From positions 1,240,001-1,304,000 of the forward strand of contig NZ_FQZX01000001.1 of assembly GCF_900142175.1 (NCBI RefSeq): DNA of 64,000 nucleotides, given 5' to 3'. Source of the DNA: Maribacter aquivivus. Its GTDB lineage: Bacteria; Bacteroidota; Bacteroidia; Flavobacteriales; Flavobacteriaceae. Below are positions 7,918-14,707 of this stretch, in pieces. A program made the translations under genes and the position numbers. Position 1 is the first letter of the stretch, and the number at the start of each line of letters is the position of its first letter. The notes below the pieces were generated by a model. It saw nothing but the letters and a program-made list of their open reading frames with translations. It had not been told where the DNA came from and made no database searches.

Positions 7918-9330
7918 ATGAATACCAAATACATTGATCTTATAGATCAAACTTACTATTTTCCACAAGAAGAGTTTAATTTAGATGGCGAACACCTACA
8001 GTTTCACGGCATACCTTTAAACGAGCTTGTTGAGCAATACGGTAGCCCATTAAAATTCACCTATTTACCGAAGATTTCTGAGAATATTCTGAGAGCCAAA
8101 AACTGGTTTGCAAATGCCATAGAGAAGAATAACTATAAAGGTAAATATCATTATTGTTATTGTACTAAAAGTTCGCATTTTCAACATGTAATGCATGAAG
8201 CGCTTAAGAACGAGATTCATATGGAAACCTCTTCTGCTTTTGATATCAATATTATAGAAAAGCTTAAGAAAGATGGTAAATTAACTGATCAAACGTATGT
8301 AATCTGTAATGGATTCAAGCGCGAAAAATACATTGATAATATTGCTCGTTTAATCAATAACGGTCACCAAAACTGTGTGCCTATTATCGATAATTACGAA
8401 GAAATAGATTTATTATCAGATGCTATTAACGATACTTTTAAAGTAGGTATTCGTATAGCATCAGAAGAAGAGCCAAAATTCGAGTTCTATACTTCTCGTT
8501 TAGGTATTGGCTACAAAAACATTGTTCCGTTTTATGAAAACCAAATAAAAGATAATGATAAGGTAGAGCTGAAGATGCTTCACTTTTTTATCAATACCGG
8601 TATTCGTGACAATGCGTATTATTGGAACGAGCTTGTAAAATGCTTAAAAGTATATGTTCGTTTAAAGAAAATGTGCCCATCATTAGATAGTTTGAACATT
8701 GGTGGCGGTTTTCCAATTAAAAACTCATTGGCTTTCGAGTACGATTACCAATACATGATTAATGAGATTTTAAACCAGATCAATATAACTTGTTCAGAGG
8801 CAGATGTTCCAGTGCCTCACATTTTTACTGAATTCGGTAGTTTCACCGTAGGTGAAAGTGGTGGTGCCATTTATGAGATTTTATACCAGAAGCAGCAGAA
8901 CGATCGTGAGAAATGGAATATGATAGATTCATCTTTCATAACCACATTACCGGATACTTGGGCAATCAATAAAAGATTTATCATGTTGCCTATTAATCGT
9001 TGGAACGATGAATATGAGCGTGTATTGTTAGGCGGATTGACTTGTGATAGCGATGATTACTATAATAGCGAGCAAAATATGAACGCTATTTATTTACCAA
9101 AATATAAGAGAGAGAAACCATTGTATATCGGCTTTTTTAACACAGGTGCTTATCAAGAGTCTATTGGCGGGTATGGCGGTTTACAACACTGTTTAATTCC
9201 GCAACCAAAGCATATATTGATTGATAAAGATGAAAACGGTAATTTTACTTATAAGCAATTTAGAGCTCAGCAAAAGGCAGAAGACCTACTAGATATTTTA
9301 GGATATGATGTTACCGCTGAAGATGAATAA
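7918..9330 (+). CDS. speA: Arginine decarboxylase, PLP-dependent (short fold-III type)
   Basis: The 470-residue protein is an alanine-racemase-fold decarboxylase. The PLP lysine is probably Lys84 in YCTKSSHF. LNIGGGFPIKNS (phosphate-binding loop), HIFTEFGSFTVGESG and LLGGLTCDSDD (catalytic cysteine region) follow in family order. Arginine is converted to agmatine, the first step of putrescine synthesis. It is shorter than the 630-660-residue enterobacterial SpeA, which is normal for Bacteroidota. The next gene encodes agmatinase, which strongly supports arginine rather than diaminopimelate as substrate. The start is ATG. The upstream 472 nt carry candidate leader features. Confidence 0.92.
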   Translation: MNTKYIDLIDQTYYFPQEEFNLDGEHLQFHGIPLNELVEQYGSPLKFTYLPKISENILRAKNWFANAIEKNNYKGKYHYCYCTKSSHFQHVMHEALKNEIHMETSSAFDINIIEKLKKDGKLTDQTYVICNGFKREKYIDNIARLINNGHQNCVPIIDNYEEIDLLSDAINDTFKVGIRIASEEEPKFEFYTSRLGIGYKNIVPFYENQIKDNDKVELKMLHFFINTGIRDNAYYWNELVKCLKVYVRLKKMCPSLDSLNIGGGFPIKNSLAFEYDYQYMINEILNQINITCSEADVPVPHIFTEFGSFTVGESGGAIYEILYQKQQNDREKWNMIDSSFITTLPDTWAINKRFIMLPINRWNDEYERVLLGGLTCDSDDYYNSEQNMNAIYLPKYKREKPLYIGFFNTGAYQESIGGYGGLQHCLIPQPKHILIDKDENGNFTYKQFRAQQKAEDLLDILGYDVTAEDE

Positions 9331-9423: not shown

Positions 9424-10362
9424 ATGAGTACATCTAAGAATTATGCCGGTATTTCCGATGAATTCGCACAACTAGAAAAATCCAAAATTATCTTGATACC
9501 TGTTCCTTATGACGGAACCAGTACTTGGGGTAAAGGAGCGGACAAAGGTCCTGAAGCTTTTTTAGAAGCTTCAGAAAACATGGAATTGTATGACATTGAA
9601 ACTGATTCTGAGGTTTATAAACAAGGTATTCATTTAACCGATCCTATAACTGAGAACAGTTCGCCAGAGGCTATGGTCAATGAAGTTCATGCTGTTACTA
9701 AAGACTTTATTAAACGTAACAAGTTTGTAACACTTTTTGGGGGTGAACATTCAATTTCAATTGGCTCTATACGCGCCTTTAATGAATGTTTTGATAACTT
9801 AACGGTATTGCAAATAGATGCACATGCAGATTTAAGAGAATCATATGAAGGTACTAAGTATAACCATGCTTGTGCTGTTTATGAGGCAAGCCAGACTACC
9901 AATTTAGTTCAGGTAGGTATTCGTTCTATGGATGTTATTGAAAAGACCGTAATGGATGAGGAAAAAACATTTTTCGCCCATGATATGGTTGCTGATGAAT
10001 ATTGGACAGATAAGGTGGTTGAAGCTATGACAGAGAACGTATTTATTACGTTTGATCTAGATGCTTTTGATCCTTCTATTATGCCTTCTACAGGTACTCC
10101 GGAACCAGGCGGATTACTTTGGTATGAAACCATGGAATTCTTAAAGCAGGTTTTTGAAGAAAAGAATGTGGTAGGTTTTGATATTGTAGAACTTTGTCCA
10201 AATAAGAATGATAAATCGTCAGATTTTTTGGCGGCAAAATTATATTACAAAATGCTCAGCTATAAATTTGCAGGGCAAGATTTCAATCAAGAGTATGATA
10301 ATACTTTTGATATAGATTATAAAGCTAACACAATTTCAAAATTTGAAAATGACGAAGAATAA
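9424..10362 (+). CDS. speB: Agmatinase (ureohydrolase family)
   Basis: Hydrolyses agmatine to putrescine and urea using a binuclear manganese centre. The 312-residue protein has all three ureohydrolase signatures: GGEHS (106-110), DAHAD (132-136) and the DLDAFDP block (211-217) followed by STGTPEPGG. These include the metal-binding histidines and aspartates. It lies 93 nt behind speA and its 3' end overlaps the next gene by 14 nt when that gene is started at its first ATG. It therefore links arginine decarboxylation to the downstream deoxyhypusine-synthase-like enzyme. No urease genes are in the window to use the urea. Confidence 0.95.
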   Translation: MSTSKNYAGISDEFAQLEKSKIILIPVPYDGTSTWGKGADKGPEAFLEASENMELYDIETDSEVYKQGIHLTDPITENSSPEAMVNEVHAVTKDFIKRNKFVTLFGGEHSISIGSIRAFNECFDNLTVLQIDAHADLRESYEGTKYNHACAVYEASQTTNLVQVGIRSMDVIEKTVMDEEKTFFAHDMVADEYWTDKVVEAMTENVFITFDLDAFDPSIMPSTGTPEPGGLLWYETMEFLKQVFEEKNVVGFDIVELCPNKNDKSSDFLAAKLYYKMLSYKFAGQDFNQEYDNTFDIDYKANTISKFENDEE

Positions 10363-11326
10363 AGGTGCTATCACCAATTTTATAGAAAAATACTACCTAC
10401 ACTTTAATGCCGCTGCATTGGTTGATGCTGCAAAAGGTTATGAAGAGCAATTAGAAAATGGAGCCAAAATGTTGGTGTCATTGGCTGGGGCTATGTCTAC
10501 GGCTGAACTAGGTAAAATTTTTGCAGAGGTTATTCGTCAAGATAAGGTGCAGATCATTTCTTGTACAGGCGCAAACCTTGAGGAGGATATCATGAACTTG
10601 GTAGCACATTCTCATTACAAACGTGTGCCTAACTATAGAGATTTGACTCCGCAGGACGAGTGGGATCTGTTAGAGAAAGGATTAAACCGAGTTACAGATA
10701 CTTGTATTCCAGAAGAAGAAGCATTTAGAAGATTACAAGAGCATATTTTCAAAATTTGGAAAGATGCCGATGATAAGGGAGAGCGTTTTCTACCGCATGA
10801 GTTCATGTATAAAATGTTACTTTCTGGTGTGCTTGAGGAATATTATGAGATAGACCTTAAAGACTCTTGGATGTACGCTGCTGCAGAAAAGAACCTACCT
10901 ATCATTTGCCCAGGATGGGAAGATAGTACTATGGGTAACATTTTTGCTAGTTATGTAATGAAAGGCGAGTTGAAAGCTAGTACTATGAAATCTGGTATCG
11001 AATACATGACTTTCTTGGCAGATTGGTATACTGCAAATTCGCAAAACGGAATCGGATTCTTCCAAATTGGTGGTGGTATCGCAGGTGATTTTCCAATTTG
11101 TGTAGTACCAATGTTGTATCAAGATATGGAGCGTACAGATACACCGTTTTGGAGCTATTTCTGCCAAATAAGTGATAGTACTACAAGCTATGGTTCTTAC
11201 TCAGGTGCAGTGCCTAACGAGAAGATAACTTGGGGTAAATTAGATATTAATACACCAAAATATATAATTGAGAGTGATGCGACAATTGTTGCGCCGTTAA
11301 TTTTTGCTTACCTATTAGACATGTAA
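10349..11326 (+). CDS. Deoxyhypusine synthase-family protein (possibly homospermidine synthase-like)
   Basis: The 325-residue product belongs to the NAD-dependent deoxyhypusine synthase family, which forms an enzyme-lysine aminobutyl imine from spermidine and passes the aminobutyl group to an amine. Visible family elements are LVSLAGAMSTAELGKI near the N-terminus, ENGIGFFQIGGGIAGDF-like core (here QNGIGFFQIGGG) and the WGK loop near the end, whose Lys297 matches the catalytic lysine of eukaryotic enzymes. Bacteria lack eIF5A, so the acceptor must differ; in this polyamine context putrescine (giving homospermidine, a major flavobacterial polyamine) is the best inference. I use ATG 10349; a TTG two codons earlier is possible. 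Overlap with speB suggests coupling. Confidence 0.88.
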   Translation: MTKNKGAITNFIEKYYLHFNAAALVDAAKGYEEQLENGAKMLVSLAGAMSTAELGKIFAEVIRQDKVQIISCTGANLEEDIMNLVAHSHYKRVPNYRDLTPQDEWDLLEKGLNRVTDTCIPEEEAFRRLQEHIFKIWKDADDKGERFLPHEFMYKMLLSGVLEEYYEIDLKDSWMYAAAEKNLPIICPGWEDSTMGNIFASYVMKGELKASTMKSGIEYMTFLADWYTANSQNGIGFFQIGGGIAGDFPICVVPMLYQDMERTDTPFWSYFCQISDSTTSYGSYSGAVPNEKITWGKLDINTPKYIIESDATIVAPLIFAYLLDM

Positions 11327-11328
11327 TT

Positions 11329-11652
11329 ATGGACAAGAACGCACATTTAAACAGAGTCATTGTTGACTTTAAAAAATTGACACCAGAGGTTCTTAAACTT
11401 TTGGTAGAAAGATATCCAGATGGATATGACGACCGTAATATTATCTCCTTTAGAAATGCACAAGGAGAACGTATAGAGGCTGTTGAGGTTTTAACTGAAG
11501 ACACCAAATATTTGGTAAAAATCAGTGCCAAGCTTGAGTATACTATGGAAAATTATGATGTGGATGATTATGAAGATTTTGATGACGATGATCCAACAGC
11601 GGTAGTAGAGCCAGATCCTGAAGATATGGTTGATGGTACAGATGAAGACTAG
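11329..11652 (+). CDS. Small acidic-tailed protein coupled to the DHS-like gene
   Basis: A 107-residue protein starts 2 nt after the stop of the deoxyhypusine-synthase-like gene, so the pair is almost certainly translated together. Residues 1-75 look like a compact alpha/beta domain (DFKKLTPEVLKLLVERYPDGYD, then EAVEVLTEDTKYLVKIS in two strands). Residues 80-107 are an extremely acidic, presumably disordered tail with repeated Asp/Glu and the C-terminus GTDED. I do not recognise the family. Candidate roles are a partner or substrate of the neighbouring transferase or of the RimK-like ligase encoded further down; both are inference. It is followed by a hairpin at 11688. Confidence 0.8.
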   Translation: MDKNAHLNRVIVDFKKLTPEVLKLLVERYPDGYDDRNIISFRNAQGERIEAVEVLTEDTKYLVKISAKLEYTMENYDVDDYEDFDDDDPTAVVEPDPEDMVDGTDED

Positions 11653-11768: not shown

Positions 11769-13295
11769 ATGAAAATTGACGAAATTGAAAATATTGAATT
11801 AAAGTTTTTAGATCTTGATGATTATCAAGAATTAAAAACTGCTATGATTTCTGCTTACGCCAACATGCCTGGGTCATATTGGAAAGAGGAGCACATAAAA
11901 TCTTTAATCGATAAATTTCCTGAAGGTCAGGTAGTCATAAAAATTAATGGTCAATTGGCAGGTGTAGCTTTGTCTATTGTTGTTGACTATGATTCATTTG
12001 ATGACACCCATACTTATGAGCAAATTACGGGTAAGTACAGTTTTGACACTCATGATGATGAAGGCGATGTACTTTATGGTATAGAGGTATTTATTAAACC
12101 AAGCTTTAGAGGCTTACGCTTAGGTCGTCGATTATATGATTATAGAAAAGAACTTTGTGAGAAATTGAACTTAAAGAGTATTGTATTTGGTGGTCGTATG
12201 CCTAATTACCATGCGTATGCAGCAGATTTGTCTCCTAAAGAATATATAGACAAGGTTCGTCGTAAAGAAATTCAAGATCCAGTTTTAAATTTTCAAATTA
12301 GTAATGATTTTCATCCTGCCAAGGTAATGAAAGGGTATTTAGATGGTGATAAAGCTTCCCAAGACTTTGCTATTCTTATGGAGTGGGATAATATCTATTA
12401 TCAAAAACCTAATAAAAAGGCGGCTACCAAAAAATCAATAGTTAGATTAGGGTTGATACAATGGCAAATGCGCCCTTACAAAGACTTAGAGGAACTTTTA
12501 CAACAAGCGGAATTTTTTATAGATTCTGTTTCTGGATATAGGTCCGATTTTGCACTATTTCCAGAATTTTTTAATGCACCCTTAATGGCAGGTAACAATC
12601 ATATGTCTACGGCAAGTGCTATTAGAGAGCTGGCTAAACATACCCAAGCTATAGTGCAGAAATTTTCTGAATTTTCCATTTCTTACAACATCAACATTAT
12701 CTCTGGTAGTATGCCTGAAATGATAGATGGACGCCTGTATAATGTAGGTTATTTATGTAGACGAGATGGTAGTATGGAGCGTTATGAAAAGCTACACGTT
12801 ACCCCAGATGAAGCCAAGGTTTGGGGAATGCAAGGAGGTACGCAGCTAAAGACTTTTGATACGGATTGTGGTAAAATAGGGGTTTTGATTTGTTATGATT
12901 CTGAATTTCCTGAATTAAGTAGAATATTAGCAGATGATGGCATGGATATTTTGTTTGTACCTTTCTTGACCGATACCCAAAACGGATATTCTAGAGTACG
13001 TCATTGTGCTCAGGCTCGTGCAATAGAAAATGAATGTTATGTGGCTATTGCAGGTAGTGTAGGTAACTTGCCAAATGTTGAGAATATGGATATTCAATTT
13101 GCCCAGTCGATGGTATTTACACCATGTGATTTCTCTTTTCCAACCAATGGTATTAAGGCGGAAGCTACTCCAAATACAGAAATGATTTTAATCGCAGATG
13201 TGGATATTGACCTATTGCGAGAGCTTAATCAATTTGGTGCGGTACGCAATTTAAAGGATAGAAGAACAGATTTATTTGAGTTAAAAAAGAAATAA
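11769..13295 (+). CDS. GNAT acetyltransferase-nitrilase (carbon-nitrogen hydrolase) fusion
   Basis: This 508-residue protein has two enzymes in one chain. Residues about 8-215 form a GNAT fold with the acyl-CoA loop region GLRLGRRLYDYR. Residues about 225-505 form a carbon-nitrogen hydrolase with an intact catalytic triad: Glu266 (FPEFF), Lys341 (YEKLHVT) and Cys375 (LICYDSEFPE). Nitrilase-superfamily members cleave amides such as N-carbamoylputrescine or omega-amides, and a GNAT domain acetylates amines, so polyamine derivatives are possible substrates given the upstream genes. Neither specificity can be read from sequence. It is separated from the 107-residue gene by 116 nt with a hairpin and followed 41 nt later by the RimK fusion. 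Confidence 0.9.
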   Translation: MKIDEIENIELKFLDLDDYQELKTAMISAYANMPGSYWKEEHIKSLIDKFPEGQVVIKINGQLAGVALSIVVDYDSFDDTHTYEQITGKYSFDTHDDEGDVLYGIEVFIKPSFRGLRLGRRLYDYRKELCEKLNLKSIVFGGRMPNYHAYAADLSPKEYIDKVRRKEIQDPVLNFQISNDFHPAKVMKGYLDGDKASQDFAILMEWDNIYYQKPNKKAATKKSIVRLGLIQWQMRPYKDLEELLQQAEFFIDSVSGYRSDFALFPEFFNAPLMAGNNHMSTASAIRELAKHTQAIVQKFSEFSISYNINIISGSMPEMIDGRLYNVGYLCRRDGSMERYEKLHVTPDEAKVWGMQGGTQLKTFDTDCGKIGVLICYDSEFPELSRILADDGMDILFVPFLTDTQNGYSRVRHCAQARAIENECYVAIAGSVGNLPNVENMDIQFAQSMVFTPCDFSFPTNGIKAEATPNTEMILIADVDIDLLRELNQFGAVRNLKDRRTDLFELKKK

Positions 13296-13336: not shown

Positions 13337-14707
13337 TTGGATAATTTACAGATTATAGGTAGTGAAGAGTGGTGTGTGTTTAATGATTTGGGTATACCTG
13401 CAATTAAAGCAAGAGTAGATTCAGGTGCGAAAACATCTTCCATACAAGCTACCAATATAAAAATGGTATCAAAAGGTGGACAAGAATGGGTGAAATTTGA
13501 GGTAAGTCCACTACAAGAAAACCGCAGTATTGCCATTGAATGTCAAGCAAGATTGGTTGCTCGCCGTATGGTAAAAAGTTCATCAGGTATATCTGAAGAA
13601 CGTTTGGTAATCAAAACTCCAGTTACTATTGGTCAAGATACTTTTGAAATTGAACTTACTCTTGCAAATAGAGATACGATGGAGTTTCGTATGCTATTGG
13701 GTAGAGAAGCTTTAAATGAACGTTTTATTGTTAACCCTGCTTTAAATTATCAGCTACAAGATTTTAAGGATAGTGATGTAAATAAGTTATATGCTCCTTA
13801 CTACAAGGAGAAAACAGGATTGAAAATTGCACTTCTTGCAAGTAATCCTAATTTGTATAGTAATAAAAGAATCATGGAAGCCGCTGAGGCTAGAGGGCAT
13901 GAAATACATTTCTTGAATGTAGAACAAGCTTATATGAAGCTCGATGCGCATTCTCCTGAAATTAGATATCGCGGTGGAATTATTTTAAAGGATTATGATG
14001 CGGTTATTCCACGTATTAAACCTTCAGTTACTTTTTACGGTTGTGCGTTAATTCGTCAATTCAACAATTTGGGAGTGTATTGTCAGAATTCATCAGAAGC
14101 AATTACACAGTCTAGAGATAAGCTGTTTGCCTCTCAATTGTTTTCTAATCATGATATTCATATTCCTATAACAGGATTTGCAAAATCACCGATGGATACC
14201 AAAGATTTGATTAAAATGGTTAATGGGGCTCCGTTAATTATTAAGCTTCTTGAAAGTACACAAGGTAAAGGTGTTGTTCTGGCAGAAACCAATAAGGCTG
14301 CTGAAAGTGTTATTAATGCCTTTAAAAGTGTTAATACCAATATATTGGTACAAGAGTTTATCAAAGAAGCAAACGGGCAGGATATTCGTTGTTTTGTAGT
14401 CAACGGTAGAGTAGTGGCTAGTATGCAACGCCAAGCCCAAAAAGGAGAATTTAGAGCTAATATTCACCAAGGTGGTATTGCTTCTATAATTAAAATTACT
14501 GCAGACGAAAAGAAACTGGCTTTAAAAGCAGCCAAAGTATTAAACCTTGCAGTTGCCGGTGTAGATATTATTCGTTCTAACAAAGGACCTTTATTGTTGG
14601 AGGTTAACTCTTCACCTGGGTTAGAAGGTATAGAAAATGCTACAGGTAAAGATATTGCCAATGCCATGATTGTGGCAATTGAAAAGCGATTGAAATTTGC
14701 TAATTAA
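13337..14707 (+). CDS. RimK-like ATP-grasp ligase with N-terminal retropepsin-like (RimB/DUF785) domain
   Basis: The 456 residues comprise an N-terminal 'ATP-dependent zinc protease' (RimB/DUF785) domain, about 5-140, carrying VDSGAKTSS with Asp28-Ser29-Gly30 of the aspartic-protease type. A C-terminal RimK domain, about 155-455, has the ATP-grasp features [30 protein letters not shown] and [14 protein letters not shown]. RimK ligases add glutamate or other amines to carboxyl ends of proteins or small molecules. The start is forced to be TTG: a stop codon lies five codons upstream, no ATG intervenes, and the first ATG would delete the DSG motif. An AGGAGG occurs 15 nt before the TTG. It is the last gene before a terminator. 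Confidence 0.9.

Follow-up and report, generated by a model that had tools for sequence, protein, structure and literature searches.

The described systems closest to the locus studied here are built around homologues of deoxyhypusine synthase (DHS). As presented in extracts of the papers cited in this paragraph, SpeY is a DHS homologue that makes homospermidine and is described as uninvolved in deoxyhypusine formation (PMC9992855, PMC10407285), CdmS, also homologous to DHS and retaining its conserved lysine, takes agmatine as substrate and not putrescine (PMC10981699), and homospermidine can also appear as a side-reaction product of DHS (PMC7780104). The same extracts state that every member of the Flavobacteriaceae has homospermidine as its major polyamine (PMC3072086), and in two Flavobacterium species this was measured (PMC8570120). 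In the literature searched, again seen as extracts, we found no characterised member of the DHS-like clade to which the enzyme of this study belongs.

Gene order and the DHS-like enzyme

We examine a stretch of 64,000 nucleotides from Maribacter aquivivus (the window), in which five genes between 7918 and 13295, from a decarboxylase to a GNAT-hydrolase fusion, all point in the same direction. The features that we refer to throughout are the following.

7918..9330, + strand: arginine-decarboxylase-like protein, an alanine-racemase-fold decarboxylase, 470 aa (PF02784, 49.3 bits)
9424..10362, + strand: agmatinase, 312 aa (TIGR01230, 224.8 bits, over the cut-off of 174.3)
10349..11326, + strand: DHS-like protein, probable SpeY-type homospermidine synthase, 325 aa (PF01916, 152.8 bits)
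11237..11239, + strand: codon of Lys297, the catalytic-lysine position in WGK (sequence and alignments)
11329..11652, + strand: small protein of 107 aa, predicted alpha/beta domain at the N-terminus followed by an acidic tail, family uncharacterised (open reading frame; relatives)
11518..11520, + strand: codon of Lys64, the sole lysine fixed among DHS-adjacent copies (alignments of copies)
11551..11649, + strand: acidic tail, residues 75-107 of the small protein (composition; pLDDT)
11769..13295, + strand: fusion of GNAT and carbon-nitrogen hydrolase domains, often in the same cluster (PF00583, PF00795)

The agmatinase and DHS-like genes overlap by 14 nt, the DHS-like frame starts at the ATG at 10349, and 2 nt separate its stop from the start of the small gene at 11329. 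An initial annotation of this DNA had proposed the gene pair, with a DHS-family enzyme that keeps the catalytic lysine loop (WGK, Lys297) and a 107-residue frame beginning 2 nt 3' of its stop; the open reading frames, the PF01916 score and the alignment to solved chains bear out the pair, its coordinates and the motif. Downstream of the cluster, at 13337-14707 of the window, a RimB-like protease domain is fused to a RimK-like ligase.

The DHS-like protein matches PF01916 well above the cut-off of 27 bits and over profile positions 10-287 of 288. When the protein is aligned to solved DHS chains, its Lys297, which lies within GSYSGAVPNEKITWGKL, falls on their WGK lysine (at the equivalent position the solved pair 8qzw and 8qzx carry K and A, respectively), and all 19 of the clade members that we aligned carry it. 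These come from alignment A3, for which 23 DHS frames were read and four frames of another kind (L026, L027, L029 and L030) were left out. The window enzyme is 68-94% identical to the 18 aligned relatives, two of which are from genomes of about 600 kb, and 99% identical to a Maribacter caenipelagi protein; judged by these alignments, the Bacteroidota DHS-like clade is strikingly uniform. A DHS 90% identical to that of the window also occurs in a record titled uncultured Campylobacterales (L202), which is probably a misbinned contig.

Curated models place this clade at a distance. Every NCBIfam DHS-type model stays under its cut-off for the window protein, the top score being 118.5 bits where the cut-offs run from 304 to 500; on the homospermidine biosynthesis protein model (NF001980) it reaches 112 bits against a cut-off of 450, so we describe the enzyme as one that probably works like SpeY and do not file it under NF001980. 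After the GGG motif the clade reads I-A/S-GDFP, and alignment A3 contains a fixed GDFPICVVPM stretch where the solved DHS chains carry a K-H pair. Because the protein is far from the curated models and has no K-H pair after GGG, the chemistry of this clade could differ from that of DHS. A second kind of DHS homologue, scoring above 300 bits against PF01916, is found in six genomes of our class survey (L026-L031).

A candidate route from arginine to homospermidine

The two genes directly upstream of the DHS-like gene are those of putrescine formation, which is the clustering seen with SpeY: the agmatinase lies over its cut-off, and the decarboxylase has biosynthetic arginine decarboxylase as its top NCBIfam model (169.9 bits, under the cut-off of 369). 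Our preferred reading is that the operon probably makes homospermidine from arginine and that the 107-aa protein is a dispensable accessory. The decarboxylase would convert arginine to agmatine and the agmatinase agmatine to putrescine, after which the DHS-like enzyme would couple aminobutyl units by means of NAD and an imine on Lys297, the acceptor of the aminobutyl group being a small amine and not a protein. The 107-aa protein, built as a small alpha/beta domain with a polyanionic tail, would be co-transcribed with these enzymes, and our best guess is that it may act as a polycation-binding regulator or buffer. What we observe directly is the order of the genes, their families, where the catalytic lysine lies, and how the two genes co-occur and are linked; the substrates, the product and co-transcription are inferences, and what the small protein does is the weakest of them.

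How else could this organism obtain a triamine? Searches of its genome returned no match to AdoMet decarboxylase and none to nspC, and the spermidine synthase family gave a single match of 23.2 bits, barely above the cut-off of 22.9; we therefore set aside the canonical spermidine route. Enzymes of the homospermidine synthase or carboxyspermidine dehydrogenase type were likewise rejected: the saccharopine-dehydrogenase family PF03435 has five matches in the genome, three over the cut-off, and the top-scoring one, on which this judgement is based, resembles saccharopine reductase. Since no other recognised triamine route was found in this genome, the DHS-like enzyme is the best candidate found there for its triamine synthase. 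Homospermidine synthesis with the small protein as helper was one of two explanations offered by the initial annotation, and it is this one that the operon, the genome content and the published chemotaxonomy support. On this reading, the signature polyamine of flavobacteria may be produced by an enzyme clade that none of the curated models tested names.

The simple pathway has a gap in its putrescine supply. In one genus of the order survey (g2) all ten genomes have the DHS and none of the ten has an over-cut-off agmatinase; and among the named loci (the best 80 of 586, read out to 4 kb or as far as the contig extended), 26 of 80 have a decarboxylase gene immediately 5' of the DHS. The latter arrangement is what one might see if the enzyme coupled two agmatines, as Thermus CdmS does, with the agmatinase then stripping the guanidino groups to leave homospermidine and the small protein again an accessory. 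We regard such a course as rather unlikely. It is true that the same neighbours, decarboxylase and agmatinase, would serve it, and that CdmS is itself homologous to DHS, keeps the lysine and takes agmatine in place of putrescine (PMC10981699). Yet the window enzyme reaches only 97.4 bits on the bis-guanidino-azanonane synthase model (NF002699, cut-off 500), whereas the two tested proteins of the second DHS kind exceed that cut-off at 564.6 and 584.2 bits, and in the stretch of human DHS Asp243 it keeps an Asp (WEDST vs TDGS) where CdmS has Phe. Moreover, an agmatinase would still be required, and the g2 genomes are without an over-cut-off one.

A different departure from homospermidine synthesis would be for the enzyme to modify elongation factor P (EF-P), the bacterial relative of eIF5A. 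EF-P is present in 141 of 149 class genomes and has a loop lysine, in VKPGKG. In the 29 loops read from the best-scoring 30 loci, the same lysine occurs in genomes with DHS (10) and without it (19); the lysine thus does not track the enzyme, and we rejected EF-P as the acceptor, a role that appears exceedingly improbable.

The small protein and its linkage to the enzyme

Taking homospermidine synthesis as the preferred reading, we turn to the protein encoded next to the enzyme. It belongs to a large family, with 2633 relatives by sequence search and 6445 by profile, and neither Pfam nor NCBIfam gave a significant match to it; two family members compared with PHROGs gave no significant match either. 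The predicted fold of the window protein is b-a-b-b-b-a over residues 8-74, at a mean pLDDT of 66.1 (moderate confidence), falling below 50 from residue 83 on, while the close relative P0239 is predicted with high confidence (mean pLDDT 82.7; at least 90 at 77 of 120 residues). Searches of solved and viral structures with predicted folds, that of P0239 included, found no significant match. Residues 75-107 contain 17 D/E and no K/R, and the pI of the whole protein is 4.1; a small, predicted N-terminal domain followed by a strongly acidic tail, as the initial annotation had it, is what we also find. The median D/E fraction of the tail is 0.60 in DHS-adjacent copies (33 frames) and 0.49 in other copies (33 frames; lowest 0.09). 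In many relatives (P0121, P0138-P0240) the core ends in DDDDYDDDGNL, a stretch that is absent from the window protein and that presumably recalls a calcium-binding loop.

Linkage of the two genes recurs. Of the 40 order-survey genomes that contain the two genes, 31 have the small gene directly 3' of the DHS on the same strand, and in the class survey it adjoins the DHS in 11 of 19. Among the best 80 of 586 named loci it is the next gene in 59, with gaps of -4 to 93 nt; in a further 8 a GNAT-hydrolase gene stands between the two, and in 13 there is no small gene within the fetched flank. Adjacency is found in six families (f1, f10, f34, f53, f68 and f75). With thousands of genes per genome, a neighbourhood that recurs in this way would not be expected by chance, and because it recurs, a functional link of some kind between enzyme and small protein is supported. 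The small-protein group repeatedly linked here to polyamine synthesis runs to thousands of members (6445 by profile), and our searches assigned it to no family.

The adjacency could also be inherited synteny without functional meaning, the small protein having a general role, for example at RNA polymerase or the ribosome. Unlinked copies do adjoin varied genes, as read from translations, and some relatives carry automatic names, DNA primase in UniRef and RNA polymerase subunit delta in JGI. What these labels have in common with the family is that the proteins are short and have an acidic tail, and no Pfam or NCBIfam model tested backs them; they were probably transferred on composition. The genome of the window itself holds a second family member (G000:C2:99533-99799; L025, L113), 39% identical to the first, that adjoins an aroB-like gene, a position that would suit a general role. 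Against mere inheritance, adjacency recurs in the six families despite other changes of gene order, and their small proteins range down to 26-34% core identity with the window protein. On balance we hold a general role with meaningless synteny to be unlikely. The aroB-like neighbour arrangement is common to G246, G253 and G277, of which G253 is without DHS.

Does the enzyme need its neighbour? We counted the small protein as absent where there was no match with a 21-sequence profile after a word filter; the class count excludes G130, a low-complexity false match, and includes G019. Across the 149 class genomes DHS is present in 108 and the small protein in 23, with both in 19, DHS alone in 89 and the small protein alone in 4 (G001, G019, G034 and G131), and Fisher's test, which ignores phylogeny, gives p 0.31. 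The order survey of 148 genomes has DHS in 82 (one match, in G212, being a fragment) and the small protein in 49, with both in 40, DHS alone in 42 and the small protein alone in 9, and here the same test, again ignoring phylogeny, gives p 7.8e-6. The genus g127 of family f77 is instructive: 19 of 19 genomes of about 600 kb keep DHS together with an over-cut-off agmatinase, and none of the 19 has a match to the small protein, from which it follows that the DHS-like enzyme can do without the small protein, which is thus no obligate partner. That such reduced genomes keep both enzymes also suggests that homospermidine matters even in apparent endosymbionts.

The earlier proposal that the small protein is the partner of the enzyme therefore stands only in part: the recurrent adjacency speaks for it, and its absence from so many DHS-bearing genomes shows that the partnership is not obligate. 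The condition named at that time as counting against a pair, that the small gene should be lacking in most cases where a homologous DHS is present, describes the class (89 of 108), is about evenly balanced in the order (42 of 82) and does not describe the best 80 of 586 named loci, where only the 13 mentioned above are without it in the fetched flank.

Lysine 64 and the known systems

The second explanation of the initial annotation was that the small protein is itself the substrate, one of its lysines taking up an aminobutyl group in a bacterial counterpart of hypusination. By our alignments the most plausible site would be Lys64. An eIF5A acceptor is not to be expected in bacteria, and if Lys64 were modified, bacteria would own a hypusine-like system. 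Besides the tight and recurrent linkage, the pattern at this residue is what gives the proposal its interest: Lys64, in YLVK at the end of the fourth strand of the predicted model, is the only lysine fixed in DHS-adjacent copies, being Lys in 31 of 31 distinct copies (L010 and L119 count as adjacent on their coordinates) and in 67 of 67 copies from the named loci (the best 80 of 586).

The wider family does not follow this pattern. No lysine is invariant across it, and Arg replaces Lys64 in 6 of the 33 copies that are not linked to DHS, in 39 of the 50 rows of alignment A4 (the other 11 being Lys) and in 94 of 98 further relatives (alignment A5, drawn from the best 120 of 6445, with 22 left out, mostly near-copies). 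Four of the six unlinked Arg copies are in genomes that have both genes (G009, G054, G088 and G141), where an invariant acceptor would have to be Lys, and Lys is kept in several genomes without DHS. On a tree of weak resolution, a single independent pair supports the association between linkage and Lys64. Nor do the two proteins travel together as a candidate substrate and its enzyme would: the counts above leave the small protein missing from 89 of 108 class and 42 of 82 order genomes with DHS, and conversely, of the genomes with the small protein, 4 of 23 in the class and 9 of 49 in the order have no DHS. An acceptor lysine is expected to be fixed wherever enzyme and substrate coexist and, since none is fixed family-wide, a hypusine analogue is unlikely, although by the same alignments Lys64 would be the residue to examine. 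Taking all of this together we give protein modification on Lys64 a very slim chance, and we reject it as the main reading on account of the occurrence of each gene without the other, the lack of an invariant lysine and the Arg64 of the four DHS-bearing genomes.

More broadly, it is possible, though we put it forward only tentatively, that the linked small protein is a dedicated polyamine-pathway factor of a new kind, one that binds polycations and so regulates or buffers homospermidine or, with far lower probability, an aminobutyl acceptor at Lys64 and hence a hypusine analogue that arose independently in bacteria. Homospermidine synthesis with a dispensable accessory remains the reading that we prefer, and it is the one under which the comparison with known systems is best drawn.

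Eukaryotic and archaeal DHS, which act with eIF5A or aIF5A, belong to the same superfamily, and their catalytic lysine aligns with that of the window enzyme; they read GGGVVKHH or GGGISKHH where the window enzyme reads GGGIAGDFP and, unlike the DHS-eIF5A or DHS-aIF5A pair, the neighbouring small protein is not conserved alongside the window-type enzyme. CdmS of Thermus thermophilus has in common with our proposal a DHS homologue and homospermidine synthesis together with an agmatine ureohydrolase, and differs in its agmatine substrate and in having Phe in place of human Asp243, a residue at which the window enzyme has an aligned Asp (PMC10981699). With SpeY the Bacteroidota clade shares, according to the extracts, the DHS-family fold, the catalytic lysine and the clustering with decarboxylase and agmatinase genes (PMC9992855, PMC10407285), although it lies far under the NCBIfam cut-off for a homospermidine biosynthesis protein (112 vs 450 bits).
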